Source of the DNA: Nocardiopsis suaedae
Lineage (GTDB): Bacteria > Actinomycetota > Actinomycetes > Streptosporangiales > Streptosporangiaceae
DNA: 58,262 bases
Assembly (NCBI RefSeq): GCF_027706745.1
Contig: NZ_JAQFWP010000044.1
Coordinates: 1-58,262, forward strand
Reading direction: 5' to 3'
Shown here: positions 18,793-43,640 of the stretch, piece by piece
Numbering within the stretch: position 1 is the first letter of the stretch
Layout: every line of letters starts with the position of its first letter
Made by a program: the position numbers and the translations under genes
Notes under the pieces: model-generated
The model's input: only the letters and a program-made list of their open reading frames with translations
What the model was told of the DNA's origin: nothing
The model's database searches: none

Positions 18793-20148
18793 TCACCCCT
18801 CCAGCTTCTCCACCGCGTTCACGTAGGCCTCGTTGAAGGTCGGGAACTGGGCGATCCCGTCGGCCAGGACGTCCAGGGGGACCTCCGCGCGCACCGCCAA
18901 GGCCGCGGTATGGATCCACTCCCCGGCCATCGGCGCCACCGCCCACGCCCCGATCAGGACCCGGCGCCCGGTGTCGGCCAGCACGCCCAGGCGGCCCCGC
19001 GGGTCGGTCGAGTAGGTCCACGGACGCGCCAGCTCCGTCGGCAGGTCCACCTCCGCCGACGCGGTCGCGATGCCGCGCTCGGCCGCCTGCCGCGCGGTCA
19101 GCCCCACCGCCGCCGTCTCCGGGTCGGTGAACAGCACCCGCGGCACCGCCGTGTAGTCCGCACGGCGGTCCCGCCCCAGGAGGTTGTCGGCGACCACGCG
19201 CCCCTGGTACTTGGCGACGTGCGTCAGCGCCGCCACCCCGGTGACGTCGCCGACCGCCCACAGCCCTTCCGCGGCCCGGCAGCGGTCGTCCACCTCCAGC
19301 CCCCTGCGGCCGACGTCGACCCCCTGCTCTTCCAGTCCCAGCCCGGCCGTGTTCGGGGTACGGCCGGTGGCCGCGAGCACCACCTCGGCCTCCACCCGCG
19401 AGCCGTCGTCCAGCTCCAGCGCGCTGAGCCCGGCGTCGTCGCGGAACGCCTTGACCACCTTGGTCCCCGTGCGCACCCGCGCCCCGTCGCGCTCCAGCGC
19501 CGCGGCGGCCTCCGCGCCGACCTCGGGCTCCTCCCGGCCCAGCAGGTGGTCCCCGCGCTCCAGCAGTTCGACGCCGGCCCCCATGCGCGCGAGGAACTGC
19601 CCCATCTCCACGGCCACCGCGCCCCCGCCGATCACGGCGACCGACGCGGGGACGCGCTCCAGCGTGGTCGCCTCCCGGTTGGTCCACGTCTCCACCGCGT
19701 CCAGCCCGGGGAGCGGCGGCAGCGCGGGCGACGACCCCGTCGCCACCACGATGTCGGGCGCGGCCAGGGTGCGGCCGGCCGCCTCCACCCGCCACGGGCC
19801 GCGGCCGGTCACCCGGGCGGCCCCCTTGACCACCGTGACGCCCTGCTCCTCGTAGCCCGCCACCTGACGGGAGTCGTCGAAGTGCCGTACGAGGGTGTCG
19901 CGGTAGTTCCGGATGCCCGGCCAGTCCAGCCCCGGCTCCGCGACCCCGGCCGACCCCGCGGCCTCGGACCGCACCTCGGGCGGGCGCAGCAGCGTCTTGG
20001 ACGGGATGCAGGCGTAGTACCCGCACTCGCCGCCGATCAGCTCCCGCTCCACGACCGCGACCCGCCTGCCCGCCGCCGCCAGGCGGGACGCGACCGTCTC
20101 CCCGCCGGGCCCCATTCCGATGACGACGGTGTCGAACCGTTCCTCCAC
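18793..20148 (-). CDS. FAD/NAD(P) disulfide oxidoreductase, class I flavoprotein, atypical C-terminus
   Basis: 451 residues, similar in plan to dihydrolipoamide dehydrogenase and mercuric reductase. The FAD site is VVIGMGPGGETVASRLA, the redox-active pair is CGYYACIPSK (CxxxxC), the NAD(P) site is VAVIGGGAVAVEMGQ and the second FAD site is GLWAVGDVTG. The C-terminal His-Pro motif that provides the acid/base in true lipoamide dehydrogenases reads FPTFNEA here, so the catalytic His is missing. It is therefore an unlikely E3 for the dehydrogenase at 2.4-5.9 kb. It lies 114 bp downstream of ispG on the same strand and could end that operon. Substrate unknown. Confidence 0.85.
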   Translation of the reverse strand: MEERFDTVVIGMGPGGETVASRLAAAGRRVAVVERELIGGECGYYACIPSKTLLRPPEVRSEAAGSAGVAEPGLDWPGIRNYRDTLVRHFDDSRQVAGYEEQGVTVVKGAARVTGRGPWRVEAAGRTLAAPDIVVATGSSPALPPLPGLDAVETWTNREATTLERVPASVAVIGGGAVAVEMGQFLARMGAGVELLERGDHLLGREEPEVGAEAAAALERDGARVRTGTKVVKAFRDDAGLSALELDDGSRVEAEVVLAATGRTPNTAGLGLEEQGVDVGRRGLEVDDRCRAAEGLWAVGDVTGVAALTHVAKYQGRVVADNLLGRDRRADYTAVPRVLFTDPETAAVGLTARQAAERGIATASAEVDLPTELARPWTYSTDPRGRLGVLADTGRRVLIGAWAVAPMAGEWIHTAALAVRAEVPLDVLADGIAQFPTFNEAYVNAVEKLEG

Positions 20149-20262: not shown

Positions 20263-21405
20263 TCACCCGTCCTCGGACACCTCCGCGATCTCCATCGCCT
20301 TCTCGATCAGCGCCTCCACGATCCTCGACTCCGGTACGGTCGCCACCACCTCGCCCTTCACGAAGATCTGCCCCTTGCCGTTGCCGCAGGACACGCCGAT
20401 GTCGGCCTCCCGCGCCTCCCCGGGGCCGTTCACCACGCACCCCATCACCGCCACCCGCAGCGCCGCCGGGAACCCCTCGAACGCGGCGGCCACCTCCTGG
20501 GCCAGCGTGTGCACGTCCACCTGGGCCCGCCCGCACGACGGGCAGGACACGATCTCCAGCCCCCGCTCCCGCAGGGCGAACGCCTCCAGGATCTGGATGC
20601 CGACCTTGACCTCCTCCACCGGCGGCGCCGACAGCGACACCCGGATCGTGTCCCCGATCCCCCGGCTCAGCAGCGCCCCGAACGCCGCCGCCGACTTCAC
20701 GGTGCCCTGCGGCGGCGGCCCGGCCTCGGTCACCCCCAGGTGCAGCGGGTAGTCGCAGCGCTCGGACAGCAGCTCGTAGGCGGGCACCACCACCGCCGGG
20801 TCGTGGTGCTTGACCGAGATCTTGATGTCGCCGAACCCGTGCTCCTCGAACAAGGAGCACTCCCACAGCGCCGACTCCACCAGCGCCTCGGGCGTCGCGC
20901 CGCCGTGCTTGGCCAGCAGGCGGCTGTCGAGCGACCCCGCGTTGACGCCGATGCGGATGGGCACCTGCGCGTCGGCGGCGGCCCGCGCGATCTCGCCGAC
21001 CCGGTCGTCGAACCTCTTGATGTTGCCCGGGTTCACCCGCACCGCGGCGCACCCGGCCTCGATCGCGGCGAAGACGTACTTGGGCTGGAAGTGGATGTCG
21101 GCGACCACCGGGATCTGCGACCGCGCGGCGATCCTCGGCAGCGCCCCGGCGTCGTCGGCGCTGGGCACCGCCACCCGCACGATCTGGCAGCCGGCCGCCG
21201 TCAGCTCGGCGATCTGCTGCAGCGTGGCGTCGACGTCGGCGGTGACGGTGGTCGTCATGGACTGCACCGACACCGGCGCGCCGCCGCCCACCGGCACGCC
21301 GCCCACGTCGAGGCGGCGGGTGGGGCGGCGGTCGGGCGCGCGCGGCCCCGTCCACGGCTCGGGGTCGGAGGGCATGCGGGGGAAGCCCAGTTCGGTCGCG
21401 GTCAT
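20263..21405 (-). CDS. ispG: 4-hydroxy-3-methylbut-2-en-1-yl diphosphate synthase (IspG/GcpE)
   Basis: 380 residues, complete. IspG is the 4Fe-4S enzyme that turns MEcPP into HMBPP, the sixth step of the MEP pathway. Key parts: [20 protein letters not shown] at the start of the TIM barrel, [26 protein letters not shown], and the iron-sulfur ligands in [11 protein letters not shown] and [11 protein letters not shown]. The ATG at 21405-21403 overlaps the dxs stop (ATGA), so it is translationally coupled. GGAGAGGAG lies upstream. Clustered with dxs, ispH and a prenyl synthase behind the encapsulin/terpene synthase genes, it is probably a second, pathway-dedicated copy (inference). Confidence 0.96.
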
Positions 21406-23273
21406 GGTGTGCTCCTCTCCCGGCGGACCCCGGAGTGCCCGGAGGCTCCGGGCCGGGAGCCGCCGTGCGGAAGGTGGTCGAGGACGGCGGCGGCGATCCC
21501 CGCCGGGTCGAGGCCGTGCTCGTCGAGGATCCCGGCGCGTGGGCCGTGCGGGAGGAACCGCGGCGGCAGCGCCAGGGTGACCGTGCGGGTGGCCGACCCG
21601 CGCCGGGCCAGCTCCTGGCCGAGCCGGGCGCCCAGGGAGTTGGCCGCGGTGGCGTCCTCGGCGGTCAGCACGAGGGGGTGCGCGGCGGCCAGTTCCACCA
21701 GGGCGTTGTCGAGCGGCGCGATCCACCGCGGGTCGGCCGCGCTGGTGCGCACCCCGCGCGCCGCCAGCATCCGGGAGGCCTCCAGGCAGGCCCCCGCCAT
21801 CGGCCCCACGCCTAGCAGCAGCACGTCGGCGGCGGGGTCCTCCCGCAGCAGGTCGCAGTGGCCGATCCGGGCCTGCGCGGGCACGTCCGGCCCGGCCGAG
21901 GCCTTGGGGTAGCGCAGTGCGGTCGGCCCGCCGTCCTCGTCGACCGCCTCGCGCAGCAGCTCCCGCAGCGCGGCGCAGTCCCGGGGCGCGGCCAGCCGCA
22001 GCCCCGGCACCACCGGCAGCAGCGCCGCGTCCCACATCCCGTGGTGGCTGGGCCCGTCCGGGCCGGTCACCCCCGCCCGGTCCAGCACCAGCACCACCGG
22101 CAGCCGGTGCAGGGCCGCGTCCAACAGCACCTGGTCGAAGGCGCGGCCGAGGAAGGTGGAGTAGACCGCCACCACCGGCCGCGCCCCGCCCAGCGCGAGC
22201 CCGGCGGCGGAGGTCACCGCGTGCTGCTCGGCGATGCCCACGTCGAAGACGCGCCCGGGGAAGCGGCGCGCGAACGCCTCCAGCCCGGTCGGCCCGGGCA
22301 TGGCGGCGGTCACGCACACCACGTCCGGGCGCTCGGCGCCGATCGCCGCGATCTCCTCGCCGAACACCGAGGTCCAGGACGGGCCGGACGGGGACCGCGC
22401 GCGGCCGGTGCGCGGGTCGACCACGCCCACGGTGTGCAGGTGGTCGGCCCGGTCCCGCTCGGCCGGCGGGTACCCGTGCCCCTTGCCGGTGACGCAGTGC
22501 ACCACCGTCGGCCGTCCGAGGGCGGCGGCCTCGCGCAGCGCGTCCTCCACCGCCCGGGTGTCGTGCCCGTCGACCGGCCCCAGGTAGGCGAGGCCGAGGG
22601 CGGTGAACACGCCGCCCCCGTCCTCGCCCGCCGCCTCCCTGCCGTCCGACCCGCGCAGGCGCGCCAGGTGTGCGGCCAGCCCGCCGGAGGTGGGGGAGTA
22701 GGAGCGCCCGTTGTCGTTGAGCACCACCACGACCGGCCGGTCGGGCGCGGCGCCCAGGTTGTTCAGCGCCTCCAGGCTCATCCCGCCGGTGAGCGCGCCG
22801 TCGCCGACCAGCGCCACCACCCGGCGGCGCCGCTCACCGCGCAGGGCCAGCGCCTTGGCCAGCCCGTCGGCGTAGGACAGCGCGGTCGAGGCGTGCGAGT
22901 TCTCGATGACGTCGGTGCCCGACTCGGCGCGGCTGGGGTAGCCGGACATCCCGCCCTCCGCGCGCAGCCCGTCGAACCCCTCCCGCCGCCCGGTGAGCAG
23001 CTTGTGCACGTAGGACTGGTGGCCGGTGTCGAAGAGCAGCACGTCCCCGCCCTCGCGGACGTCGAACACGCGGTGCAGGGCCAGCGTCAGCTCCACCACC
23101 CCGAGGTTGGGGCCCAGATGCCCGCCGGTCCGGCAGACCCGGTCGATGAGGAAGGAGCGGATCTGCCCGGCCAGGTCCGGCAGCAGCGCGTCGGGCAGGG
23201 CGCGCAGGTCGGCGGGGGAGTCGACGCGGTCCAGCAGCGGCGTGTGCGGACCGGCCCCGTTCGCCCCCGTCAT
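21402..23273 (-). CDS. dxs: 1-deoxy-D-xylulose-5-phosphate synthase (DXS)
   Basis: 623 residues, normal size. DXS joins pyruvate and glyceraldehyde 3-phosphate using thiamine diphosphate, the first and flux-setting step of the MEP route. Present are [33 protein letters not shown], the ThDP site [20 protein letters not shown] with ND in [11 protein letters not shown], and [15 protein letters not shown] with the catalytic Glu. The ATG at 23273 overlaps the ispH stop (ATGA) and its own stop overlaps ispG. A C-terminal tail of about 15 residues after ILDHLPHGG-like sequence is extra. Likely a cluster-specific isozyme. Confidence 0.96.
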
Positions 23274-24586
23274 CGGCGCCTCACCGGGGCGGGCAGGGTG
23301 AAGTGCACGGTCTCGCGGGCGGTCTCGTACTCGGTGACCGACAGCGGCCCCAGCCCGCGCAGCGCCGCGACCACCGCGTCGACCAGGGCGGGCGGCGCGG
23401 AGGCCCCGGCCGTCAGCCCCACCGTGCGGGCACCGGCCAGCCACTCGGGGCGGATGTCGCCGGGGGCGTCGATCAGGTGCGCCGGGGTGCCGTTCCGCTC
23501 GGCCAGCTCCACCAGGCGCACGGAGTTGGAGGAGTTGTCCGACCCGACGACCAGCACCGTGTCGGACTCGTCGGCGATGGCGGCCAGGGCGTCCTGCCGG
23601 TTGGTGGTGGCGTAGCAGATGTCGTCGGAGGCGGGACCGCGCAGCGCGGGGAAGCGGGCGCGCAGCACGTCCACGATCTCGGCCGTCTCGTCCACGGCCA
23701 GCGTGGTCTGGGTGAGGTAGGAGATCCGGCCGGGGTCGGGCACCTCCAGCCGGGCCGCCTCCTCGGGGGTCTGCACCAGGACGGTGCGGGAGGGCGCCTC
23801 GCCCAGCGTGCCCTCGACCTCTTCGTGCCCCCCGTGCCCGATGAGCACCACGGTGTCCCCGCGGGACGCGAACCGGCGCGCCTCGGTGTGCACCTTGGTG
23901 ACCAGGGGGCAGGTGGCGTCGATGACGTCGAGGCCGCGCCGGTCGGCCTCCTCGCGGACGGCGGGGGACACCCCGTGGGCGGAGAAGACGACGGTCCGCC
24001 CGGCCGGGACGGCGTCCAGCTCGTCGACGAAGACCGCGCCGCGCTCCTGCAGGTCGGCCACGACGCGGGTGTTGTGCACGATCTGCTTGCGCACGTAGAC
24101 GGGGGCGCCGCACTGCTCCAGCGCGCGTTCGACGATCTCGATGGCCCGCTCCACCCCGGCGCAGAACGAGCGCGGAGCGGCCAGGAGAACCCGGCGGGGG
24201 ACACCGGCCGCCTCCCGCCAGGAGGAGAACGCCGCACGGGCGGCCTCCTCGGTCCGCGCGGCCGCGCCTTCCCGCAGGTCCTCGATCTCGACCCCCAGGC
24301 CGATACGGGCGTCGGCGCCTTCGGCGCCGGTGCCGTCGAGGACGGCGGCGAGGACGGCGCCCGCGCCGGTGCCGCCGGGGCCGGGCAGGGAGACCGGTCC
24401 GCGCCGGACCGGGACCCCGGCGCGGGTGAGGGAACCGTCGAGCAGGTCGGCGGCGGGGCAGGGGACGGGCGGCCCGTCGTCGGGGACGAGGACGTCGGCG
24501 ACCAGCGCCGCCGTGGGCCCGGTGCCGCCGGGGGGCGGTCCGGCCGCGTGCGACGGAAGGCCCGTCGCACCGCTGGAAACGGTCAT
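23270..24586 (-). CDS. ispH: 4-hydroxy-3-methylbut-2-enyl diphosphate reductase (IspH) with N-terminal extension
   Basis: 438 residues; the usual enzyme has about 310-330. The IspH domain starts near residue 130 ([20 protein letters not shown]) and holds the three 4Fe-4S cysteines in [17 protein letters not shown] and [11 protein letters not shown], plus the [10 protein letters not shown] and SSNSVRLVE segments. It makes IPP and DMAPP from HMBPP. The first 130 residues form a distinct region with [20 protein letters not shown] and [12 protein letters not shown], of unknown function. Similar long forms occur in actinomycetes; here it could aid docking to a partner or shell (inference). GAGGAGG precedes the ATG. 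Confidence 0.93.
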
Positions 24587-24710: not shown

Positions 24711-25802
24711 CTAGCCGTCGCGGTGGGCGGCCAGGCGTGCCAGGGACGCCAGCTCCTCCCGGTGGCGGCCGGGGGGGACCGCCGTGCGCAGGGCCTCCAA
24801 CGCGTTCTCCAGCAGGGCGTCCGCCCGTTCGGTCGCCCACGCCCGGCCGCCCGCCGCCTCCACGAGGCCCGCCGCGTGCTCGGCCTCGGCGCCGGAGAGC
24901 CGCTCGTGCCCGGCCATCAGCGCGTGCAGCTCGTCCCCGGCGGGGGTCCCCGACGCCACCGCCGCCACCACCGGCAGCGTCTTCTTCCGGCTGCGCAGGT
25001 CGGAGTGGACCGGCTTGCCGGTCACCTCCGGGTCGCCCCAGATCCCCAGCAGGTCGTCGGCGATCTGGAAGGACAGCCCCAGGTTCGCGCCGAAGTCGCG
25101 CATCGCCCCCACCCGGGCCGGTCCCGCCCCCGCCCACAGCGCGCCCAGGGCGGTACAGCAGGCCATCAGGGCCCCCGTCTTGCCGTGCGCCATGGACAGG
25201 CACTCGTCCAGGTCCACGTCCTCGCGCCGTTCGAAGGAGAGGTCGGCCGACTGGCCGCCGATCAGGTCCTGCACGGCGGCGGCGAGCACCCGCCCGGCCT
25301 CGGCGGCGCGGTGCGCCCCCACGAGGGACCCGCCCCGGGACACCTCCTCGAACGCCAGGGTGAGCAGCGCGTCCCCGGCCAGGACCGCCGGGCCCGCGCC
25401 GAACACCGTCCAGGCGGTGGGCCGGTGGCGGCGGGTGGTGTCCCCGTCCATCACGTCGTCGTGCAGGAGGGAGAAGTTGTGCACCAGCTCCACGGCGGCC
25501 GCGGGCGGCAGCGCCGGCCGGGCGCCGCCGCCGACGGCCTCGGCCGCCAGCAGCACCAGCGCCGGGCGCAGCGCCTTGCCGCCGCCCCCGGCCACCGGTG
25601 CCCCGTCTCCGTCGCACCAGCCGAAGTGGTACCCGCCGATGCGCCGCATCGCCGGGGGCAGGCCCTCCACGGCCTCGCGCAGCGCCGGGACCACCAGGTC
25701 GCGGGAGTCGGACAGCACACCGGCGGCGCTGCGCGGCGGCGGGCCCGCGGCGGCGGGCGGGGCCGGTGCGGTCGGCTCGGTTGCGGATTCTGTGGGGGAC
25801 AT
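24711..25802 (-). CDS. Polyprenyl diphosphate synthase (trans-isoprenyl)
   Basis: 363 residues. It condenses IPP with allylic diphosphates to make the substrate (FPP or GGPP) for a terpene cyclase. The first Asp-rich motif is [20 protein letters not shown] and the second is [29 protein letters not shown] binds IPP, and [11 protein letters not shown] is also standard. Phe at -5 and Ser at -4 before the first motif do not settle chain length. The first 28 or so residues ([20 protein letters not shown]...) are disordered Ala/Pro-rich, as in encapsulin cargo enzymes. ATG at 25802 has GGGAGG close by. Prenyl synthases are known cargo of family 2B encapsulins, and a shell gene lies 95 bp upstream. 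Confidence 0.92.
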
Positions 25803-25897
25803 GGGACCTCCCAAACGGGTCGGCGCGGCCGGTCGGGCCTCGGTTCTCTCGGAGGAGGGGCGGGGCCGCCGCTGTGCGGGCGGCCCCGGGGACGGGT

Positions 25898-27334
25898 TCA
25901 CCGGCCGAGTTCGACGTTCTCCAGCACGCCCAGGGCGTCGGGGACCAGGACCGCCACCGAGTGGTAGGCGGTCACCAGGAAGCGCCGGACCGCCTGGTCA
26001 CCGATGTCCATGGCGCGCACCGACACCCCGGGAACGTGCTCGTCGGGCAGCCCGGTGCGGTGCAGGCCGATCACCCCCTCGTCCTGCTCCCCGGTCCGCA
26101 TCACCAGGACCGAGGTGGTGCCGGCGCGGCTGACCGGGACCTTGTCGCTGGGCAGCAGGGGCACTCCGCGCCACGTCATCACGGCCTGCCCCTCCACCCG
26201 CGCGGTCCCCGGCATCACCCCGCGCCGGGAGCACTCGCGCCCGAACGCGGCGATCGCCTTGGGGTGCGCCAGGAAGAACTGCGACTTGCGGCGCCTGCTG
26301 AGCAGCTCGTCCAGGTCGTCCGGGCCGGGCGGCCCGGAGCGGGTGGACACCCGCTGCCGGGGGTCGGCGTTGTGCAGCAGGCCGAAGCCCCGGTCGTTGA
26401 GCAGGTCGAACTCGCGCCGCTCCATCAGCGAGTCCACCGTCACGCGCAGCTGCTCCCCCTGCTGGTCCATGGGCTGGCTGTACAGCTCGGCCACCCTGGT
26501 GTGCACCCGCAGCACCGTCTGGGCGATGCCCAGCTCGTACTCGCGCGGCGAGGGGTCGTAGTCGACGAACGTCCCCGGGACGACCGGCTCCCCGGTGTGC
26601 CCGGCCGCCATGGCGACGGCCGCCTCGCCGAGCCGGTTGGTCTCCGGGCGGGGGCCGTTCCGCGCCCGGCGCACCAGGGCGTCGAGCGCCGGGACGCGGT
26701 CGCGCAGCGCGGCGAAGTCGTCCGCCGCCAGCGCCAGCACCGTGCACCCGGTGGCGGCGGTCAGGGTCTCCGCCCACGGTTCGGCCTGCGACGCCGGCCC
26801 GGCCAGCGCCGAGCCCCCGGCGACCTCCCCGGACGACAGCAGCCCCAGGTGGGCCGGGTCGCCGAACGGGCCGGTGCCGGTGCGCCGCACCTTGCCGTGC
26901 GCGACCAGCAGCACCCGGTCGGCGGGCGATCCGGCCTCGGCGATGGTCTCGCCGGGCCGGTAGCGCACCTGGGTGAAGGCGTCGGCGACCGCGGTCAGCG
27001 CCTCCATCCCCGCGGCGCTCCCCTCGTCGGCCCCGCGCAGCAGGGCCAGTTCGCGCAGCCCGGCGGGGAGGGGCCGGTGGTCGGTGCCGACGCGGACCAC
27101 GGGCACGCGGCCGTCGCCGAGGGAGTGGGTCAGGCGGCGGTTCACCCGGTAGGCGCCGCCGGGGACGTCGGTCCAGGGCAGCATCCGGGAGAGCCAGCGG
27201 GGGGTGGTCTCCCGGGTGGCCGGGGGCGTCTTGGTGGTCGTGGCCAGTTTCCGTGCGGCCCCGGTGGCCAGGCTCTGCGGAGGCGGGGGGACCCCGTCCG
27301 CGGCCGCTCCGGGACCGTCGTGCGTCTGGGTCAT
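25898..27334 (-). CDS. Family 2B encapsulin shell protein (EshA type), copy 1, divergent
   Basis: 478 residues. Layout: N-terminal arm ([31 protein letters not shown]), an inserted cyclic-nucleotide-binding-like domain (about 85-215), and the HK97-fold shell domain. The shell domain has [80 protein letters not shown] and a PDALGVLENVEL end. Such proteins self-assemble into cytoplasmic nanocompartments around terpene or prenyl enzymes. It departs from copy 2 where [13 protein letters not shown] reads RRRKSQFFLAHP, and its nucleotide pocket lacks the usual Arg signature. Its ATG overlaps the cyclase stop (ATGA). EshA was first studied as a growth and antibiotic regulator, an alternative reading. 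Confidence 0.92.
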   Translation of the reverse strand: MTQTHDGPGAAADGVPPPPQSLATGAARKLATTTKTPPATRETTPRWLSRMLPWTDVPGGAYRVNRRLTHSLGDGRVPVVRVGTDHRPLPAGLRELALLRGADEGSAAGMEALTAVADAFTQVRYRPGETIAEAGSPADRVLLVAHGKVRRTGTGPFGDPAHLGLLSSGEVAGGSALAGPASQAEPWAETLTAATGCTVLALAADDFAALRDRVPALDALVRRARNGPRPETNRLGEAAVAMAAGHTGEPVVPGTFVDYDPSPREYELGIAQTVLRVHTRVAELYSQPMDQQGEQLRVTVDSLMERREFDLLNDRGFGLLHNADPRQRVSTRSGPPGPDDLDELLSRRRKSQFFLAHPKAIAAFGRECSRRGVMPGTARVEGQAVMTWRGVPLLPSDKVPVSRAGTTSVLVMRTGEQDEGVIGLHRTGLPDEHVPGVSVRAMDIGDQAVRRFLVTAYHSVAVLVPDALGVLENVELGR

Positions 27335-29607
27335 GGTGCGCACCGTTCGTCGAGTCGCGGTCGGGTGTGGGGGTGGTCGGGAGCGGAGGGCCGGGGGAGG
27401 CGGGCGGCCGCGGTCCCCGGGCCGCGCGGGCCGCCGAGGAGGCGGCGCAGCACCGGGCTGGTGGCCCCGGGCGCCCCGGAGGCCGGCACGGCCCGGTAGC
27501 GCCCCGTCGCGGCGGACCACGCGCGGTCTCCGGCGAGCCACAGGCGCAGGGCGTTCATGTACCGCTCTACCCGCGCCGTCGCCTCGCGTCCCAGCTCCAT
27601 CTCGGCGCACAGCGCCGGGACGTCCTCGCGGGCGGCCCGCTCGAACTCCTCCAGCCGGGCGTCGGCCGCCGCCGAGAGGATCCGGGCGGCGTCCTGGGCG
27701 GAGGTCCCGAAGAACCGCTGCGCCACCAGGACGCCGTTGTTGACGTCGGCCTCCTCCTCCATCTCCTTGCGGTAGGACAGGATGTCGTTGCGCAGCGGCC
27801 CCACGTCGGCCCAGGACTCGTTCAGCGACCGCACCGCGTCGTCGGCCAGGAAGTCCTCGGGCAGCGGCCCGCCGGGGCCGTCCCCGTCCGCCAGCCGGGC
27901 CAGCTCCAGCGAGAACAGGGTCCCGCCGGTGCGCCTGCGCATCTCGATGTAGTCGATCGGGTCGGGCACCCGGTGCTGGGCGTCGTTGGCCAGCTCCCAC
28001 AGCCACGACCCGGTGAAGTCGGCGAGGACCCGGGGGAAGGACCGCCGGGCCGTGGGCGACAGCAGCGGCGCGGTGCGCCGCCACAGGTCGGCCAGCCCGC
28101 GCTGGGCCGGGTCGGCCGGGGCGGGCGCCGCCCCGGGCTCCTCCGGCAGGAAGGCCTCCAGTCCTTCCAGGTAGGCGCGGGCCCCCGCGCGGTCCCGGGT
28201 GAGCTTGAACTCCTGGACGAACAGGTCGTCGAGGTAGAACCCCCACACGTGCCAGTCGGCGACCAGGTCCAGCTCCTCGGCGCCGGCCTCGGGGTGGGTG
28301 AGGGCGGCGAAGAGCCCGTAGTCGGCGGCGTCGAAGGCCGCCTCGTCCCACACCGGCGTCGACAGCATGCCCGTCGTCCCGGCCCACCCCTTGGTGTGCG
28401 CCCGCACCCGGTCCAGGTGGGGGCTGGTGCGCGCCGGGTAGGGCATCGCGAAATCGGGCGGCTCGACCGGCTCGGCCGGGGTGCGCTGCACCGGGCCGTG
28501 CGAGGTCGCGAACGCCCGGGAGCCCAGGGCGACGGTGGCCGCCGCCCGGACCGCCGCGGTGCCCGTCCCCTTGGGCACGGGGAGGCCGTCGGTGGCGGCC
28601 ACCGACGCGGCGCCGGGGTAGCGCCCCGACTCCAGGTGCCAGGCGTCGGTCCCGGAGAACCACTCCTGGAGCCCTTTGACGTAGCGCAGGACGCGCCCCT
28701 TCTCCGCGTCGTCGAGGGCGTGCTCGGCGAAGAGCGGGGGCAGCTCGGTGGCGGCGGTGTTCTCGATCAGGCGCATCCGCGACCCGACGACGTCCCGCAT
28801 CACCTCGGCGGCCCGCTGCGGCCCGCACTCCAGGAAGGTGTCCATCACCAGGACGCCGTTGTCGAGCTCGCCCTCCTCCTCGACCTCGCGGACGTAGGAG
28901 TACACGTCGTTGTGCATCCCGGCGGCGTCGGCGAAGGCGTCGGTGACCACCCGCAGCGGCCGGGTGCGGGCCACCCGGGCCGGCAGCTCGGCGCCGAGCA
29001 CCGCCTCCACCAGGCCGGCCGACCACTCGGCTCCGCCGGCCCGGCGCCGCATCTGCAGGTAGTCGATGGGGTTGGCGACCTCGTCCTTGGCGATGGAGAC
29101 CAGTTCCCGCAGCGACTCGTCGGTGAGGTTGCGGGTGTAGCCCAGGAACCGCTCGCGCCAGTCGCGGGACATCGCCGGGGCGGTGCGCAGCCACAGGTCG
29201 GCCAGGGACCGCTCGACGGGGGCGCCCGCCTCGGGCACCCCGTCCCCGGGGTCGAGCGGCATGTACGCCCGCAGGCCCAGCAGGTAGGCCTTGGCGGCCT
29301 CCTTGTCCCGGGTGCGCTTGAACATCTCCAGGAAGTGGTCGTCGAAGTAGAACACCCACACGTACCAGTCGGCGGCCAGCTTCATCAGCCGCTCGTCGCA
29401 GTCGGGGTGGGTGTAGGCGGCCAGGAGCGGGAAGTCGTGGGCCTCGTACTTCTCCCGGGTCCACACGGGCGTGCCGTCCGGTCCGGTGTCGTCGAAGATC
29501 CCCATCTCCTCGGTCCAGGCTCTGGAGTGCTCCCGCGCGGCCTCCACATGGGGGTTCAGCCGCGCGGGGTACAGCGCGTAGAACGGCGGGATCCGGTAGG
29601 GGTGCAC
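27331..29607 (-). CDS. Two-domain class I terpene synthase, germacradienol/geosmin synthase type
   Basis: 758 residues, against about 725 for Streptomyces geosmin synthase, with which it shares the opening IPPFYALYPARLNPHVEAAREHS. Domain 1: DDHFLE at 89-94 and the NSE triad N233-D-V-Y-S237-x3-E241. Domain 2: DDLFVQE from 460 and NDILSYRKE from 607, so both metal sites look intact; classical geosmin synthases have DDYYP in domain 2, so the second reaction may differ. A Pro/Ala-rich linker (331-388) and a C-terminal tail (705-758, Arg/Pro/Ala-rich) look disordered. The GTG at 29607 is four bases after the upstream shell gene, with GGGAGG inside that gene. It probably cyclises FPP to a germacradienol-like product inside a shell. 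Confidence 0.9.
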   Translation of the reverse strand: MHPYRIPPFYALYPARLNPHVEAAREHSRAWTEEMGIFDDTGPDGTPVWTREKYEAHDFPLLAAYTHPDCDERLMKLAADWYVWVFYFDDHFLEMFKRTRDKEAAKAYLLGLRAYMPLDPGDGVPEAGAPVERSLADLWLRTAPAMSRDWRERFLGYTRNLTDESLRELVSIAKDEVANPIDYLQMRRRAGGAEWSAGLVEAVLGAELPARVARTRPLRVVTDAFADAAGMHNDVYSYVREVEEEGELDNGVLVMDTFLECGPQRAAEVMRDVVGSRMRLIENTAATELPPLFAEHALDDAEKGRVLRYVKGLQEWFSGTDAWHLESGRYPGAASVAATDGLPVPKGTGTAAVRAAATVALGSRAFATSHGPVQRTPAEPVEPPDFAMPYPARTSPHLDRVRAHTKGWAGTTGMLSTPVWDEAAFDAADYGLFAALTHPEAGAEELDLVADWHVWGFYLDDLFVQEFKLTRDRAGARAYLEGLEAFLPEEPGAAPAPADPAQRGLADLWRRTAPLLSPTARRSFPRVLADFTGSWLWELANDAQHRVPDPIDYIEMRRRTGGTLFSLELARLADGDGPGGPLPEDFLADDAVRSLNESWADVGPLRNDILSYRKEMEEEADVNNGVLVAQRFFGTSAQDAARILSAAADARLEEFERAAREDVPALCAEMELGREATARVERYMNALRLWLAGDRAWSAATGRYRAVPASGAPGATSPVLRRLLGGPRGPGTAAARLPRPSAPDHPHTRPRLDERCAP

Positions 29608-29611
29608 GGTG

Positions 29612-31039
29612 CTACCCGGCCTCCCGGCCGAGCTCGACGTGCTCCAGGATCCCCAGGGCGTCGGGCACCATGACCGCCGCCGAGTAGTAGGTGCTCACCA
29701 GGTAGGAGATGATCGCCTTCTCGTCGATGCCCATGAACCGCACCGACAGGCCGGGCTCGTACTCGTCCGGCAGCCCGGTCTGGTTCAGCCCGATCACGCC
29801 CTGGGTCTGCTCGCCGGTGCGCATCAGCATGATCGAGGAGGTGCGGGTGGAGCTGACCGGGATCTTGTTGCAGGGGAACATCGGCACCCCGCGCCAGGCC
29901 GGGATCTGGTGGCCGCCGTGGTCGACGGTCTGCGGGTACAGGCCGCGCTCGGAGCACTCCCGGCCGAAGGCGGCGATCGCCTTGGGGTGGGCCAGGAAGA
30001 ACGCGGGCTCCTTCCACACCAGGCTGAGCAGGTCGTCCATGTCGTCGGGGGTGGGCGGCCCGCTGCGGGTGGGGATGCGCTGCTCCAGCGCGGCGTTGTG
30101 CAGCAGCCCGAACTCGCGGTTGTTGACCATCTCGGCCTCCTGGCGCTCGCGCAGGGCCTCGATGGTGAGCCGGAGCTGCTCGCCGACCTGGCTCATCGGC
30201 TCGTTGTAGAGGTCGGCGACGCGGGTGTGCACCCGCAGCACCGTCTGGGCCACGCTCAGCTCGTACTCGCGCGGCTCCATCTCGTAGTCGACGAAGGTTC
30301 CCGGCAGGTCGGGCTCGCCGACGTGGCCCGAGGACATGTCGATGGCGGCCTCGCCGTGCTCGTTGGCGGGGGCGCCCAGGCCGGACAGGAAGGCCTCGAT
30401 GTGCGCGCGCAGGTCCTCGGAGCGGTCGGCGACCTCCTGGAAGGCCGACCGGTCCAGGGAGAGCACGGTGGTGGGGGTGACCGCCTTGACGGTGATCTCC
30501 CACCGGTCGGCCCCGCCGACCAGCGACAGGTCGCCGAAGTGGTCGCCGTCGACGAGGGTCTCCAGCACCACCGGGTCGCCGAACTCGCCGGTGCCGATCT
30601 CGTTGGCCTTGCCGTGCGCCACCAGGTGGACCCGGTCGGCGGCGTCCCCGGCGGTCACGATGGGCTGCCCGGCCTCGTACTCGGACTGCTGGAAGCGGCC
30701 GGCCAGCTCGGTCAGCAGGGCGTCGTCGTCGAAGCCGCGCAGCAGCGGCAGTTCGCGCAGTTCCTGGGGGATCACCGAGATCTCGGCGCCGCGGGTGGTG
30801 AAGGTGACCCGGCCGTCGCCGACCACGGCGCTGAGCCGGCGGTTCACCCGGTAGGCGCCGCCCGCGCAGCGGACCCAGGGGAGCAGGCGCAGCAGCCAGC
30901 GGGAGGAGATCTCCTGCATCTGCGGTTGGGACTTGGTGGTCGTGGCCAGGTTGCGGGCCGCGGCCGTCCCGAGGCTGAGCTGGGGCCGGGGAGCGCCGCC
31001 GTCCTGGGCTTCGGTACCGGATTCGAGCTGCTCGGTCAC
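29612..31039 (-). CDS. Family 2B encapsulin shell protein (EshA type), copy 2
   Basis: 475 residues; first gene of the operon. It has the canonical family 2 shell features: [16 protein letters not shown] arm, [16 protein letters not shown], a cyclic-nucleotide-binding-like insert (about 90-215, with [20 protein letters not shown]), and [18 protein letters not shown]. Then come [38 protein letters not shown] and [19 protein letters not shown]. The nucleotide cassette reads [17 protein letters not shown], without the usual Arg-Ala pair, so ligand binding is doubtful. The start is GTG at 31039 with a weak ribosome site. A palindromic operator begins 26 bp upstream. With copy 1 it may form a mixed shell around the cyclase and prenyl synthase. 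Confidence 0.94.
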
Positions 31040-31599: not shown

Positions 31600-32817
31600 A
31601 TGGCGCGGTCGGTGCGGCGGTGGGCCCAGGACCTGCTCGTCTTCGGGTTCGTCCTGGCGTGGGCGCCGATCATGGCGGTGGTGCACGCGGTCGACGGCGC
31701 GCCGCGGGACGTCCCGGAGCCGGTGGTGGCCGCCGACACGCTCGCCTGGGTCGCGGCCGCGGCCGCAGTGTGGGCGCGGCGGCGGTGGCCGGTGGGCACC
31801 GCCCTGTTCCTGGTCGCCCTGAGCACCTTCTCCGAACTGGTCGGAGGGGCGATGCTGGTCGCCCTGTACGGGGTGGCCCTGCGCCGCCCCACGCGCACCG
31901 CGGCGGCGGTCGGCGCGGCCGCGGTGGCCGCCGGCCTGGTCTTCGGCGCGCTGCGCCCCGAGCCCGGCCTGCCCTTCGCCTTCAACCTGCTCTTCGCCGC
32001 GGCCGTCGGCGGCGTGCTGTCGTTCGCGGTGCTGGGGTGGGGGATGTACGCGCGCGCCCGCCGCAGCCTGGTGGAGTCGCTGCGCGAGCGCGCCGTCCGC
32101 GCGGAGGGGGAGGCGCGGGCCCAGGCCGAGCGGGTCCGGCTGGCCGAGCGGGAGGCGGTGCTGCTCGCCGACCGGGCGCGGCTGTCCGAGCGCGAGCGCA
32201 TCACCCGGGAGATGCACGACGTGCTGGGGCACCGGCTGTCCCTGCTGAGCGTGCACGCCGGGGCGCTGGAGTACCGCCGCGACGCCTCGCCGGAGGAGGT
32301 CGCCGGTGCCGCCGGGGTGATCCGGGACAGCGCGCACAAGGCGCTGGAGGACCTGCGCGAAGTGATCGGCATGCTGCGGTCCGACGACGATGACGGCGGC
32401 GACGGCGGCAGCGCCGGCGGAGGCGCCGGATTGGACGGGATCGCCGCCCTGGTCGAGGAGTCGCGGGCCGCCGGGATGGACGTCGGCCTGGACGAGGACG
32501 TCGCCGAACCCGGGGCGGCCCCGGGCGCGGCCGGGCGCAGCGCCTACCGCGTCGTGCAGGAGTGCCTGACCAACGCGCGCAAGCACGCCCCGGGCGCGCG
32601 GGTCGCGGTCCGCGTGGCCGGTGGGCCGGGCGACGGGCTCGACGTGGAGGTGGTCTCCGATCCCTGCCCCGGCCCCGCGCCCGGCCCCGGGGCAGGGTCG
32701 GGCGCGGGCCTGGTCGGCCTGTCCGAGCGCGTGGCGCTGGCCGGGGGCACCCTGGAGCACGGCCCCCGTGCCGACGGCGGGTTCGCGGTCCGGGCGTGGC
32801 TACCCTGGGCACCATGA
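31600..32817 (+). CDS. NarL-family sensor histidine kinase
   Basis: 405 residues. Four to six membrane helices occupy about 1-150, then a coiled-coil linker rich in Glu/Arg/Ala (155-200). The HisKA_3 dimerisation box has the phospho-accepting His206 in REMHDVLGHRLSLLS. The ATPase domain shows QECLTNARKHAPGARV (N box) and GAGLVGLSERVALAGG (G box). There is no obvious extracellular sensor domain; the membrane part may sense. An Asp/Gly-rich low-complexity stretch (SDDDDGGDGGSAGGGAG) sits between. Its stop overlaps the ATG of the response regulator (ATGA), so the two form a pair. Divergent from the encapsulin operon. Confidence 0.93.
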   Translation: MARSVRRWAQDLLVFGFVLAWAPIMAVVHAVDGAPRDVPEPVVAADTLAWVAAAAAVWARRRWPVGTALFLVALSTFSELVGGAMLVALYGVALRRPTRTAAAVGAAAVAAGLVFGALRPEPGLPFAFNLLFAAAVGGVLSFAVLGWGMYARARRSLVESLRERAVRAEGEARAQAERVRLAEREAVLLADRARLSERERITREMHDVLGHRLSLLSVHAGALEYRRDASPEEVAGAAGVIRDSAHKALEDLREVIGMLRSDDDDGGDGGSAGGGAGLDGIAALVEESRAAGMDVGLDEDVAEPGAAPGAAGRSAYRVVQECLTNARKHAPGARVAVRVAGGPGDGLDVEVVSDPCPGPAPGPGAGSGAGLVGLSERVALAGGTLEHGPRADGGFAVRAWLPWAP

Positions 32818-33470
32818 CGAGCATCCGCGTCCTGCTGGCCGACGACGACCCGCTGGTGCGCTCCGGGCTGGCGCTGATGCTCGGTGGCGCGCCCGACGTC
32901 GAGGTCGCCGGGGAGGCCGGGGACGGCGACGCGGCCTGCGCCCTGGCCCGGCGGCTGCGCCCGGACGTCGTCCTGATGGACATCCGGATGCCCGGGACCG
33001 ACGGCCTGGAGGCCACCGAGGCGCTGCGCGCCGGGCCGGACGCCCCGGAGGTGATCATCCTGACCACCTTCGACACCGATGAGCACGTGCTGCGCGCCCT
33101 GCGCGCGGGCGCGGCGGGGTTCCTGCTCAAGGACACCCGCCCGGAGGAGATCGTCGGGGCGCTGCGCCGCCTGCGGGCGGGCGAGCCGGTGCTGTCCCCG
33201 TCGGTGGCCCGGCGCCTGATCGCGCACGTGGCCGGGGGCGGGGACGAGGCGCTGCGCCGCCGGAACCGGGCGCGCGAGCGGCTGGCGCTGCTGAGCGGCC
33301 GCGAGCGGGAGGTGGCGGCGGCCATCGGCCGCGGCGCGTCCAACGCCGAAATCGCCGACGGGTTGTACATGGGCCTGCCCACGGTGAAGACGCACGTGTC
33401 CCGCATCCTCACCAAGCTCGATCTGAACAACCGGGTACAGATCGCCCTGCTCGCCAACGACGCGGAATGA
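32814..33470 (+). CDS. NarL-family response regulator, partner of the kinase
   Basis: 218 residues. Receiver domain (1-120) with acidic pocket DDD at 10-12, phospho-acceptor Asp56 in LMDIRMPGTDG, Thr and Lys in ILTTFDTDEH and FLLKDT. The C-terminal LuxR-type helix-turn-helix has LSGREREVAAAIGRGASNAE and TVKTHVSRILTKLDLNNRVQ. It is translationally coupled to the kinase. It is a candidate to bind the shared RTGAAYTCNTCAYG sites because NarL proteins bind short inverted repeats, but nothing in the sequence proves it. Confidence 0.95.
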   Translation: MTSIRVLLADDDPLVRSGLALMLGGAPDVEVAGEAGDGDAACALARRLRPDVVLMDIRMPGTDGLEATEALRAGPDAPEVIILTTFDTDEHVLRALRAGAAGFLLKDTRPEEIVGALRRLRAGEPVLSPSVARRLIAHVAGGGDEALRRRNRARERLALLSGREREVAAAIGRGASNAEIADGLYMGLPTVKTHVSRILTKLDLNNRVQIALLANDAE

Positions 33471-33569
33471 CGGAAGCCTGCCTCCTTGCCGTTTCATGAC
33501 GCGGAATCGGTCGGCGGTGCGGCGCGAGGCGCAGGGAAACCGAAGTCGATTAGTCCTGCCGTGAACATC

Positions 33570-33587
33570 TTGTCCGAAAGTGGACAA
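33570..33587. promoter_or_regulatory. Inverted repeat upstream of the second NarL regulator
   Basis: TTGTCC, six bases, GGACAA: perfect 6-bp arms, 120 bp before the GTG of the regulator at 33707. TGTCCGAA from this element recurs at 33625-33632. Possibly an autoregulatory site. Confidence 0.4.
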
Positions 33588-33706
33588 TTGTGAAAAGTCG
33601 GGACGAGGTCGGGACCCACTAAAGTGTCCGAAGGCGGCCACCGCCCCCGGGGCGGCCATGAAGGACAGCCGTCGCCGTCCACCGCCGGAAGGAAGAGAAC
33701 ACAGCA

Positions 33707-34312
33707 GTGATCCGGGTGATCCTGGCCGAAGACATGCACATGGTCCGGGGAGCGCTGGTGTCCCTCCTCGGCTTGGAGGACGATATCGAGGTCGTCGCCG
33801 AAGTGGTCTCGGGGGACGAGATCCTCCCGGTCGTCCTCGAGCACCGCCCCGACGTCGCGATCATCGACATCGACCTGCCGGGCAAGGACGGCCTCACCGC
33901 CGCGACCGAGATCCGGGACAAGGCGCCCGAGACGCGCACGCTCATCCTCACCAGCCTCGGCAAGCCGGGGACGATGCGGCGCGCCCTGGAGGCCAAGGTC
34001 GGCGGCTTCCTGCTCAAGGACGCCCCGCCCAAGGAGCTCGCCGACGCCGTGCGCGGGGTCAACTCCGGGCGCCGGGTCGTCGACGGGGAACTGGCCCTCG
34101 CCGCGTTCGAGACCGAGGAGTGCCCGCTGACCCCCCGGGAACTGGACGTGTTGCGCCTGGCGGCGGACGGGATCGACGTCACCGACATCGCCGGGCGGCT
34201 CTTCCTGACCGCCGGGACCGTGCGCAACTACCTGACCTCGGCGACCACCAAGCTCAACGCCCGCAACCGGGTGGACGCCATCCGCATCGCCGCGGAGGCG
34301 GGCTGGATCTGA
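33707..34312 (+). CDS. NarL/DesR-like response regulator without adjacent kinase
   Basis: 201 residues. Receiver domain with the acidic pair in ILAEDMHMVR, phospho-acceptor Asp54 in VAIIDIDLPGKDG, LTSLGKPGTM and GGFLLKDAPPKEL. The C-terminal LuxR helix-turn-helix has LTPRELDVLRLAADGIDVTD and GTVRNYLTSATTKLNARNRV. This resembles DesR-type regulators that often stand as pathway regulators next to lantibiotic or other RiPP genes. GTG at 33707 has GGAAGGAAG upstream. It is convergent with the SagB gene and is the regulator closest to the TOMM genes. The kinases at 55-58 kb are DesK-like and could be partners (inference). Confidence 0.92.
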   Translation: MIRVILAEDMHMVRGALVSLLGLEDDIEVVAEVVSGDEILPVVLEHRPDVAIIDIDLPGKDGLTAATEIRDKAPETRTLILTSLGKPGTMRRALEAKVGGFLLKDAPPKELADAVRGVNSGRRVVDGELALAAFETEECPLTPRELDVLRLAADGIDVTDIAGRLFLTAGTVRNYLTSATTKLNARNRVDAIRIAAEAGWI

Positions 34313-34328: not shown

Positions 34329-35708
34329 TCACCCGGCGCTGAAGTCGCCGGTGGGGACCTCGGCGATGCCGTCCAGGCGCAGGGCCCGGGCCGAGGTCTC
34401 GCCGTCGCCGGTGACCAGGACCGAGGCGGCCAGGCGCAGGTCCTGGGCGGCCTGGCGCAGCCGCTCCTGCAGGGCGCCGGTCAACAGCAGGGCGGTGGCG
34501 TACGGGCTGGCCTCGACCGACCGCGGGATGGCCGGCATCCGCGCCGCGATGGTGATCAGCACCGCCGGGACCGGGCCGCTGCCCCCGGCCACCCGGGCGC
34601 AGTCCAGCAGCGCCCGGGTGTCCTCCTCGTCGGAGTTGACCAGCAGCAGCGCGTGGCCCCGCGGGGAGTAGCGGTAGATGCCGCGCTCCACGTCGCTGCT
34701 GTGGTTGACGGTGATGTAGAAGTCCAGCGACCGCTCCGGCCCCGGCACCGCGGGCACCGCGTCCATGACGCCGGGGGCGCCCTGGTCCAGCGCACGTGAG
34801 AGCAGGGCCCCCAGCTCGGCGGCGCGCAGGGGGCGTCCCGGGTCCGGGGGGACCACCACGGCGCGCACCGGCGGCTTCGCCCCGGGGAGCGGGACCCGCC
34901 GGGGCGGCGGCCGGTTCCCCGGCCCGGTCCGGGCGGACGCGGCCAGCGACCGGCCGTCGCGACCGGGTCGGCGCCGGGAGTGGAACAGCAGGTCGTGCGG
35001 GGACCAGGGGGCCAGGCGGGTGTCGGTGTCCTCCAGCAGGAGCGGGCGGCCGCCCTCGGGCCCGCGCCGCCCCTGGACCGCCACCCCGGCCGCGGTCAGG
35101 TGGGCGACCACCTCCCACAGCACCGCGGGCGCGATGTCGTCCAGCTCCGCGGCCAGCTCCTCGGGGCCCACCGGGGAGGCCAGCGCCCCGATCACCCGCA
35201 GCGCCTCGGACCGGTGGAGCACCACCCGGTGCAGCGCCAGCGGGGACTCGGCCAGCAGCAGGGTGCCCGAGGTGCGCACCACCGCGTACCGCGACATCCG
35301 CACCACCAGCCCCGCCGGGAGGCGGGGCCGCAGCGGCGGGGTGAACCGGGCCCACGGCGCGACCGGTTCCACGGACAGCACCGGGCCGCCCAGATTCCCA
35401 TCGGACAGCGAATGGACCACGCACCCGTCCAGGTCCTCCAGGACGCGCCGGACCCCGTCCAGCGCCCGGTCCCGTTCCGGCCCCCCGCAGGGGAGCACGT
35501 TGTCCGGGCTGACCGGCCCCAGCGACATCCGGTCCAGCAGCGTCCGCACGGCGGGGCCGGGGTCGGCGACGCGCACGTCCCCCCACCGCGAGGCGACGGT
35601 CAGCGAACCGTCGGCGCCCTCCTCGACCAGGGCGCCGTCGATGAGGGAGAGCAGTCGCTGGGGGCGCGTCCCCCCGCCGTGCTGGAACATCCGCCGTCCA
35701 AGGGTCAC
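34329..35708 (-). CDS. SagB-like FMN-dependent dehydrogenase of a TOMM pathway
   Basis: 459 residues. SagB enzymes oxidise azolines on a RiPP precursor to thiazoles or oxazoles using FMN. The N-terminal half (SRYAVVRTSGTLLLAESPLA, ALRVIGALASPVGPEELAAEL) matches the SagB-associated domain. The C-terminal half has the nitroreductase-fold features LDFYITVNHSSDVERGIYRY and LLLVNSDEEDTRALLDCARV. It then diverges: the usual GASRRRSxRxF entry segment and part of the flavin motifs are hard to see, so activity is not certain. GTG at 35708 overlaps the YcaO stop (GTGA), showing coupling. Only one cysteine and several Thr/Ser exist in the likely substrate. Confidence 0.75.
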   Translation of the reverse strand: MTLGRRMFQHGGGTRPQRLLSLIDGALVEEGADGSLTVASRWGDVRVADPGPAVRTLLDRMSLGPVSPDNVLPCGGPERDRALDGVRRVLEDLDGCVVHSLSDGNLGGPVLSVEPVAPWARFTPPLRPRLPAGLVVRMSRYAVVRTSGTLLLAESPLALHRVVLHRSEALRVIGALASPVGPEELAAELDDIAPAVLWEVVAHLTAAGVAVQGRRGPEGGRPLLLEDTDTRLAPWSPHDLLFHSRRRPGRDGRSLAASARTGPGNRPPPRRVPLPGAKPPVRAVVVPPDPGRPLRAAELGALLSRALDQGAPGVMDAVPAVPGPERSLDFYITVNHSSDVERGIYRYSPRGHALLLVNSDEEDTRALLDCARVAGGSGPVPAVLITIAARMPAIPRSVEASPYATALLLTGALQERLRQAAQDLRLAASVLVTGDGETSARALRLDGIAEVPTGDFSAG

Positions 35709-39558: not shown

Positions 39559-40268
39559 CGCCGTACTCCGACGAATAGGCCCCGCGCCGTGTACTCCGCG
39601 GACACGTACTCGACGTCGAATCCGGCGCCCGCGAACGCCTGCTCGTAGTCCTCTCGGCGGAACAGCGTGTAGCGGTGCTCCTCGGTGAAGTCGCTGAGGC
39701 CGTGCTGCGAATCGGCCACCGCGTAGTGCACGCGCATCACCGCCCGCTCGCCTTCCCGCCGACTGTGCGACATGCGTGAGATCAGTGTGTCACCGGAGCG
39801 CACCACGTCCCCGGCCACATGGCCGGGGGTGAAATTCTCCGGGAACCACCAGGGCTCCACCACCGCCACCCCGCCTGGGCGCAGGTGCGCGGCGAACCGT
39901 TCCAGGGCCGCCTTCAGATCGGCCGCGGCCCCGGCGTAGGCGATCGAGCAGAAGAGGCAGGTGATGGCGTCGAACGTGCGCCCGAGGTCGAAGGTGCGCA
40001 TGTCGCCGTGGGTGAGCGGCACCGAGGGGAGGCGCCGGGCCGCGGCCTGAAGCATGGGGCCGGACAGGTCCACCCCTTCGACGCGGTCGAAGTGCGTGCC
40101 GAAGTGTTCCAGATGGGCGCCGGTTCCGCAGGCGACGTCGAGGAGAGAGCGCGCCCCGGGCGTGCGGCCGAGGACGGCATCGGTGGCTTCCGCGGCCTCG
40201 GCTGCGAAGTCCTTGCCCCGCGCCGTGTGCAGGGTGTCGTAGAGGGGGGCCGATTCACTTCCGTACAT
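39555..40268 (-). CDS. NDP-3-amino-deoxyhexose N,N-dimethyltransferase (DesVI/TylM1-like)
   Basis: 237 residues, the same length as DesVI. SAM-binding motif LLDVACGTGAHLEHF, then VEGVDLSGPML and LTHGDMRTFDLGRTFDAITC. The family hallmark VVEPWWFPENFTPGHVAGDV is present, as is the RGLFVGVR C-terminus. These enzymes add two methyl groups to the 3-amino group of a TDP-deoxysugar. GGAG precedes the ATG at 40268. It is followed by the ketoreductase with overlap. The match is close enough that a dimethylamino sugar is a firm prediction. Confidence 0.93.
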   Translation of the reverse strand: MYGSESAPLYDTLHTARGKDFAAEAAEATDAVLGRTPGARSLLDVACGTGAHLEHFGTHFDRVEGVDLSGPMLQAAARRLPSVPLTHGDMRTFDLGRTFDAITCLFCSIAYAGAAADLKAALERFAAHLRPGGVAVVEPWWFPENFTPGHVAGDVVRSGDTLISRMSHSRREGERAVMRVHYAVADSQHGLSDFTEEHRYTLFRREDYEQAFAGAGFDVEYVSAEYTARGLFVGVRR

Positions 40269-43617: not shown

Positions 43618-43640
43618 GCGCCGCCCATCGGTTCCGGAAC

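Follow-up and report, generated by a model that had tools for sequence, protein, structure and literature searches.

The stretch of DNA considered here (the window, 58,262 nucleotides) is contig C44 of the 6.97 Mb genome (G000) of Nocardiopsis suaedae. Its minus strand carries a gene for a two-domain class I terpene cyclase, which lies between genes for two different family 2B encapsulin shell proteins, Enc1 and Enc2, and is followed by a gene for a polyprenyl diphosphate synthase (PT; Table 1). Operons of this type have already been described. What is new is the second domain of the cyclase, which is not of the geosmin type, together with the clade of cyclases to which it belongs. The three central genes, on one strand, lie exactly where the original prediction had put them, with a gap of 4 bases between Enc1 and the cyclase and an ATGA overlap of the cyclase stop with the Enc2 start. 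That prediction set the end of the locus too early, as PT, ispH, dxs and ispG continue on the same strand. A gap of 124 bases separates PT from ispH. The run possibly ends with an oxidoreductase gene, which is also found 3' of the operon at three related loci (L010, L011 and L134). Among named relatives, Nocardiopsis chromatogenes and N. endophytica come closest, with cyclases 93-94% identical to that of the window.

Table 1. Genes and motifs of the operon, in window coordinates
Feature	Position	Strand	Description
Enc1	29612..31039	-	Family 2B encapsulin shell, 475 amino acids, GTG start; NF041163 765.8 bits; PF19307 + PF00027
Enc1 motif 1	30011..30022	-	LVWK, residues 340-343; S. lydicus Enc1 counterpart TVWK (PMC12407261)
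Cyclase	27331..29607	-	Two-domain class I terpene cyclase, 758 amino acids, GTG start; two PF19086 stretches
Domain 1 metal motif	29326..29343	-	DDHFLE, residues 89-94
Domain 1 NSE motif	28885-28911	-	NDVYSYVRE
Inter-domain cargo-type motif	28543..28572	-	KGTGTAAVRA, residues 346-355, degenerate; consensus GPTGLGTSAAR
Domain 2 metal motif	28213..28230	-	DDLFVQ, residues 460-465, not geosmin-type DDYxP
Domain 2 NSE motif	27763-27789	-	NDILSYRKE
C-terminal cargo-type motif	27397..27432	-	GPRGPGTAAARL, residues 726-737, in low-confidence tail
Enc2	25898..27334	-	Second family 2B encapsulin shell, 478 amino acids; NF041163 667.4 bits; PF19307 + PF00027
Enc2 motif 1	26285..26296	-	RRRK, residues 347-350; S. 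lydicus Enc2 likewise RRRK (PMC12407261)
PT	24711..25901	-	Polyprenyl diphosphate synthase, 396 amino acids; GTGA overlap with Enc2; NF041169
IspH	23270..24586	-	TIGR00216 313.7 bits, above cut-off
Dxs	21402..23273	-	TIGR00204 512.4 bits, above cut-off; ATG at 23273 picked as start, overlaps IspH stop
IspG	20263..21405	-	TIGR00612 400.2 bits, above cut-off; ATG at 21405 picked as start, overlaps Dxs stop
Oxidoreductase	18793..20148	-	Pyridine nucleotide-disulphide oxidoreductase, PF07992 + PF02852; possibly last gene of the run

The best-studied encapsulated terpene cyclase makes 2-methylisoborneol. Two-domain cyclases resembling geosmin synthase were described in 2021 as family 2B cargo, with two shells per operon (PMC8346489), and in 2025 Dutcher, Andreas and Giessen reported 503 two-component operons, including a TC/PT type in which the terpene cyclase (TC) can sit between Enc1 and Enc2 and PT follows Enc2 (PMC12407261). 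The earlier view that the arrangement was not known as described therefore has to be given up, since the gene order is given in the one paper and the two-domain cargo in the other. The cyclase retrieved 316 relatives, and 31 of the best 80 (the named loci) also show the order shell-cyclase-shell-PT. Three more loci have shell-cyclase-shell without PT, 18 have cyclase-shell-shell, five shell-cyclase and three cyclase-shell, and the remaining 20 showed no shell in the fetched flank, which was at most 10 kb. Fourteen of the 80 lie near enough to a contig end to lose a neighbour. The window shares with the TC/PT type the order Enc1-TC-Enc2-PT, the motif 1 pair (VWK versus RRRK), the insertion resembling a cyclic nucleotide monophosphate (cNMP) binding domain and an actinobacterial host, whereas it has in addition a downstream tail of methylerythritol phosphate (MEP) pathway genes, and the characterised pair, from Streptomyces lydicus, comes from a putative xylulose kinase operon and was studied without cargo (PMC12407261).

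Against NF041168 (family 2 encapsulin cargo terpene cyclase) the cyclase of the window matches over profile positions 2-735 of 735. Like the geosmin-synthase-like cargo, it has two cyclase domains in one protein and is encoded beside a family 2B shell, here on both sides. The sequence supports the earlier proposal that it is a likely cargo. Over residues 2-335 it can be aligned with 5dw7 (384 bits), which like 5dz2 is a germacradienol/geosmin synthase of Streptomyces coelicolor, and both DDHFLE and the NSE motif (asparagine, serine, glutamate) are kept. By sequence, domain 1 is of the germacradienol synthase type. As a geosmin synthase yardstick we used L110 (737 bits, near the 5dw7 protein), to which the window cyclase is 51% identical in domain 1 and 39% in domain 2. 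The short L110 locus has no family 2B shell, and two are found elsewhere in that genome.

The motifs with the consensus GPTGLGTSAAR have been proposed as targeting sequences (PMC8346489). At the two places where the cargo described in that paper and modelled by NF041168 has them, between the domains and at the C-terminus, the window cyclase carries degenerate versions, and like that cargo it has encapsulin neighbours. An AlphaFold2 model (57 aligned rows; mean predicted local distance difference test score, pLDDT, 88.1) has two all-helical domains. The pLDDT falls below 50 at residues 341-350 and over most of 709-758, and the cargo motifs lie in or beside these stretches.

In geosmin synthase, domain 1 makes germacradienol and domain 2 acts by a retro-Prins fragmentation; both domains contain an Asp-rich motif, an NSE motif, a pyrophosphate sensor and an RY (arginine-tyrosine) pair (PMC6604706, PMC10881772). 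We compared the second domains in a table of 112 cyclases. Ten loci had been removed from it as duplicates and L131 as truncated at the end of a contig, while L012, holding an N, was kept. DDxxP is present in 91 of the 112. Another 16, namely six from Nocardiopsis (the window included) and ten from Actinomadura, have the aspartate pair without the proline, as DDLFVQ, DDLFVE, DDFFVD and other variants, and every one of these 16 adjoins at least one shell. The clade is not the sole place where the proline is missing, since five further cyclases outside it (L082, L108, L129, L136 and L138) also do without DDxxP; these had no family 2B shell in their fetched flanks (at most 10 kb for named loci, about 1-1.5 kb for L105-L127) and were placed in neither group of the comparison that follows. 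Six positions are changed in all 16: 464 (P in 100% of the 91 DDxxP cyclases), 457 (T, 99%), 561 (F, 98%), 453 (L, 98%), 698 (H, 98%) and 433 (C, 97%). Contrast positions of this kind number 19 in domain 2 and three in domain 1. The second domain of the window cyclase lacks the residues that second domains with DDxxP share, so that the original description of a geosmin-like cyclase holds for domain 1 and fails for domain 2, where P464, T457 and F561 are all missing.

A tree of 97 cyclases, made by a quick method after removal of 15 near-duplicates, contains 15 of the 16, and these form one clade (Shimodaira-Hasegawa-like approximate likelihood ratio test, SH-aLRT, 97). We also built a mixture-model tree of hand-picked domains (33 second and nine first domains, with the long rows L108, L136 and L138 omitted). 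Rooted on the nine first domains, it places 11 second domains of the clade (99/94) as sister to 22 geosmin-type ones (100/100). At some aligned positions second domains of this type are like domain 1 and unlike geosmin-type second domains: position 457 is F in 12 of the 16. In a domain 1/domain 2 alignment of 36 hand-picked cyclases of the 112, whose 14 non-geosmin rows include three from outside the clade, position 599 is aromatic, as in domain 1, in 13 of the 14, and position 561 is G, again as in domain 1, in four of the 14.

We consider it likely, judging from the sequence, that the operon encodes a two-component terpene nanocompartment which makes a terpenoid other than geosmin. Because domain 2 is without the geosmin-type residues, the enzyme probably makes a different compound, and the end product of the system is most likely not geosmin. 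In such a compartment Enc1 and Enc2 would together build a T=1 shell in which the two are mixed irregularly, as was shown for S. lydicus. The cyclase would be loaded by means of the motifs in its disordered linker and tail, and PT probably by a disordered N-terminus. The extra Dxs, IspG and IspH would boost the supply of C5 precursors, and PT would yield a linear prenyl diphosphate, either farnesyl diphosphate (FPP) or one of longer chain. Domain 1 would convert FPP to germacradienol or a germacrene-type product. Domain 2, in which the Asp pair and NSE are kept, would most likely ionise a prenyl diphosphate or otherwise transform the product of domain 1. A more specific suggestion can be made, although only tentatively, and we would not be surprised to see it fail. 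The encapsulated cyclases of Nocardiopsis and Actinomadura may form a lineage that is a deep sister to geosmin synthases. Their domain 2 would never have acquired geosmin chemistry or would have lost it, and with two ionising sites, a PT packed with them in the two-component shell and dedicated MEP genes, they would make an undescribed terpenoid. A new encapsulated terpenoid could be sought directly in this shell-linked clade with its non-geosmin second domain, and a comparison of the sister second domains could show what the geosmin-type residues do. Our searches of the open PMC literature listed no report of this clade, and one may exist outside it.

Several observations weigh against this interpretation. 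The score of the cyclase against NF041168, 892.4 bits, is below the cut-off of 1200. Both of its cargo motifs, KGTGTAAVRA and GPRGPGTAAARL, are degenerate, and these two features, with the lack of DDYxP-type residues in domain 2, set it apart from the cargo of PMC8346489. At positions 453 and 698 the residues are unlike those of domain 1 and also unlike those of geosmin-type second domains. The deep split seen among second domains is not seen among the first domains (L013_D1 groups with L049_D1, 95/97), and hence the basal place of domain 2 could in part be due to long-branch attraction or to domain replacement. The role that we assign to the geosmin-type residues follows from their conservation and not from mutants. 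Finally, at a position where nine of the ten members from Actinomadura carry E or D, domain 2 in Nocardiopsis has Q and could for this reason have little or no activity, and its ratio of nonsynonymous to synonymous substitution rates (dN/dS, by a rough Nei-Gojobori calculation) is higher than that of domain 1 in five of eight clade pairs (0.52 versus 0.29 and 0.54 versus 0.15, for example).

An alternative is that domain 2 is a decaying relic and that the enzyme is in effect a germacradienol/germacrene D synthase acting through domain 1 only. The motif DDLFVQ has no distal acid, and domain 2 changes faster: the window cyclase and L134 are 84% identical in domain 1 and 71% in domain 2, with dN/dS of 0.29 and 0.52. 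However, NSE and both aspartates are retained in all six Nocardiopsis copies, R703 is invariant in the 57-row alignment (L012 excluded), and domain 2 has a confidently predicted fold. Across all 13 pairs dN/dS is below 1 in both domains; in domain 2 it ranges from 0.24 to 0.56 over the eight clade pairs, the upper value coming from L012, which is partly out of frame behind an N, and in the three closest clade pairs it is not above that of domain 1. Domain 2 is therefore under constraint, on the whole less than domain 1, and a relic seems rather unlikely to us. An apparent frameshift in the N. halophila cyclase (L012) was considered as a sign of decay and set aside: the break sits at an assembly N, and another frame continues to the C-terminal motif.

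It could also be argued that this is an ordinary encapsulated geosmin synthase whose domain 2 makes geosmin despite its changed residues. NSE and the Asp pair are kept in both domains, the match to NF041168 is full length, domain 1 is strongly like 5dw7, and the gene order is that of operons with a DDYxP cyclase. Against this stand the six residues that are absent from all 16 members of the clade and present in 97-100% of DDxxP cyclases, and the position of domain 2 outside all sampled geosmin-type second domains. Moreover, the contig of Actinomadura kijaniata that carries its encapsulin-linked cyclase (L021) also carries another cyclase, which has DDYFP (L034). We regard this possibility as quite unlikely.

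The assignment of both shells to family 2B, made in the original prediction, is borne out: each scores above the NF041163 cut-off of 400 bits (NCBIfam) and has an SrpI-like PF19307 and a cNMP_binding PF00027 domain (Pfam). These two are the only matches in the genome to pass that cut-off. Sequence identity between the two is 54% over the whole length, lower in the cNMP-like domain (44%) and higher in the C-terminal HK97 part (61%). The best PDB match of Enc1 is 9bje (S. lydicus Enc1, 661 bits, as against 622 for 9bix), and that of Enc2 is 9bix (S. lydicus Enc2, 520 bits, as against 488 for 9bje); both entries stem from PMC12407261 and were assigned to Enc1 and Enc2 by their motif 1 letters. 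The difference that had been noticed between the shell domains, LVWK versus RRRK, is real and corresponds to the diagnostic motif of that paper. The locus has two different family 2B genes less than 10 kb apart, one with VWK and the other with RRRK, and in this it matches two-component systems. In motif 2, the luminal A-domain loop, Enc1 resembles AVDFHGHSLP of S. lydicus Enc1, and TARVEGQAVM of Enc2 weakly resembles GAELHGTDVR of S. lydicus Enc2.

In a tree of 88 shells (the shell rows of 13 near-duplicate loci having been removed) Enc1 falls among VWK-type and Enc2 among RRR-type shells. Recent duplication of a shell gene was considered and can be ruled out by this placement and the 54% identity, in agreement with the earlier reading. 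Neither type is monophyletic (four changes for RRR and five for VWK, with six rows unread), the motif classes having been read by a crude regular expression. Apart from those of the window, the 38 upstream shells comprise 31 VWK, three RRR and four unread, and the 73 downstream shells comprise 55 RRR, 14 VWK and four unread. The VWK-type shells found downstream are the first shells of TC-Enc-Enc operons.

A T=1 shell consists of pentamers only. The characterised two-component shells of S. lydicus are irregular mixtures with a size of about 28 nm, which agrees with T=1, and have motif 1 TVWK in the one protein and RRRK in the other (PMC12407261). By analogy, the mixed two-component shell proposed for the window is likely, but the further idea that the two proteins occupy fixed and different pentamer and hexamer positions does not agree with such irregular tiling. 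Instead, each of the two proteins could build a shell of its own, with the cyclase in the one and PT in the other, say, as the presence of two different putative cargos may suggest and as could not be excluded in PMC8346489. We hold this to be improbable, as Enc1 of S. lydicus forms no regular shells by itself and co-assembles with Enc2 (PMC12407261), and the shells of the window have the same diagnostic motif 1. The system offers a way to ask whether both enzymes, the prenyl synthase and the cyclase, are housed in a single shell.

With 454.6 bits over residues 60-395, PT narrowly exceeds the curated cut-off of 450 for NF041169, the polyprenyl transferase cargo of family 2 encapsulins, and its first 59 residues fall outside the model. 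Its best general match, the geranylgeranyl diphosphate synthase IdsB (339.9 bits), is below its own cut-off of 475 and does not settle the chain length. The ispH, dxs and ispG genes of the operon are extra copies, as there are others on contigs C2, C94 and C51, respectively. Such a tail is not unheard of, since PT systems often encode terpenoid precursor genes (PMC8346489). Among the 31 shell-cyclase-shell-PT loci, ten have IspH, Dxs or IspG downstream by scripted criteria, which exclude L060 with its split IspH matches. IspH has an N-terminal extension of about 125 residues, common to four named Nocardiopsis loci (L009-L012), and a Pfam scan of the window protein gave no match beyond the LytB domain.

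How general is the association of two-domain cyclases with shells? We took a class-level sample of 246 actinobacterial genomes, that of the window included, and counted cyclases at E<=1e-100 for NF041168 and shells at E<=1e-60 for NF041163. A family 2 shell match is present in all 59 genomes with a two-domain cyclase (that in G151 is partial, 251.7 bits) and in 14 of the 187 without one. Of these 14 matches, ten are partial (about 207-450, perhaps family 2A), and the other four, which cover the full length, all come from genus code g46. In an earlier sample a shell was present in 33 of 33 cyclase genomes and in eight of 34 others; the 33 are what is left of 41 genomes with any cyclase match once the window's own genome and seven weak ones are taken out, and the 34 are 27 genomes without a match plus the seven weak ones, to which three of the eight shell carriers belong. 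These counts ignore shared descent, and where the shell lies elsewhere its cargo may be a different one. Taking a distance of up to 15 kb on a single contig as linkage, we counted by eye from coordinates 30 of the 59 genomes with cyclase and shell linked and 29 with the two unlinked, of which 23 are of genus code g75. The cargo motif is a poor marker of linkage, because unlinked cyclases also carry it and their genomes hold shells elsewhere. Co-occurrence of this kind hints at loading in trans, and it makes testable whether ordinary geosmin synthases load into shells encoded elsewhere. For the combinations of encapsulin with Nocardiopsis, and of encapsulin with geosmin synthase from 2022 onwards, we found no paper in the open PMC literature.

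There are other two-domain cyclases in the same genome. A paralogue on contig C99 (L137, 10138-12468) has RDESRA in domain 1, without an Asp pair, and DDYYPL and NDLFSYQKE in domain 2. L128, L130 and L135 are like it, with the domain 1 pair lost (RDESRA, or RDDARA in L135) and DDYYPL in domain 2, and are a mirror image of the window cyclase. Between L137 and L128 domain 2 is the better kept (97% identity versus 90% for domain 1, dN/dS 0.18 versus 0.40). The complementary losses in the C44 and C99 cyclases may hint at a split geosmin pathway in trans, in which the encapsulated domain 1 would supply germacradienol to the C99 paralogue, whose domain 2 keeps the geosmin-type motif, an idea that we hold to be highly improbable. 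N. potens (G003) has a further unlinked cyclase, L132, that keeps DDDFLE and DDVYPV. The cyclase on contig C3 (L138) has a degraded metal motif, AAHFRG, in domain 1. At that locus (7065-11401) a DyP-type peroxidase with the tail ASLGIGGLRG and a family 1 encapsulin (NF041155, 314 bits) are encoded upstream of the two-domain cyclase. The same order is found at L129 and L131, in two other Nocardiopsis genomes, as judged by open reading frame sequence, the families having been scanned in L138 only.

Three groups of genes elsewhere in the window may be mentioned. A histidine kinase and two LuxR-type response regulators are encoded on the plus strand at 31600-34312, divergently from the operon, and are candidates for its control. 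A YcaO cyclodehydratase at 35705-38032 (337 bits) suggests an azoline peptide cluster beside the operon. The genes at 38665-46695, for a sugar epimerase, an EryCIII-like glycosyltransferase, a DegT aminotransferase, a major facilitator superfamily (MFS) pump and a nucleotidyltransferase, resemble a cluster for a deoxysugar or a glycosylated product.

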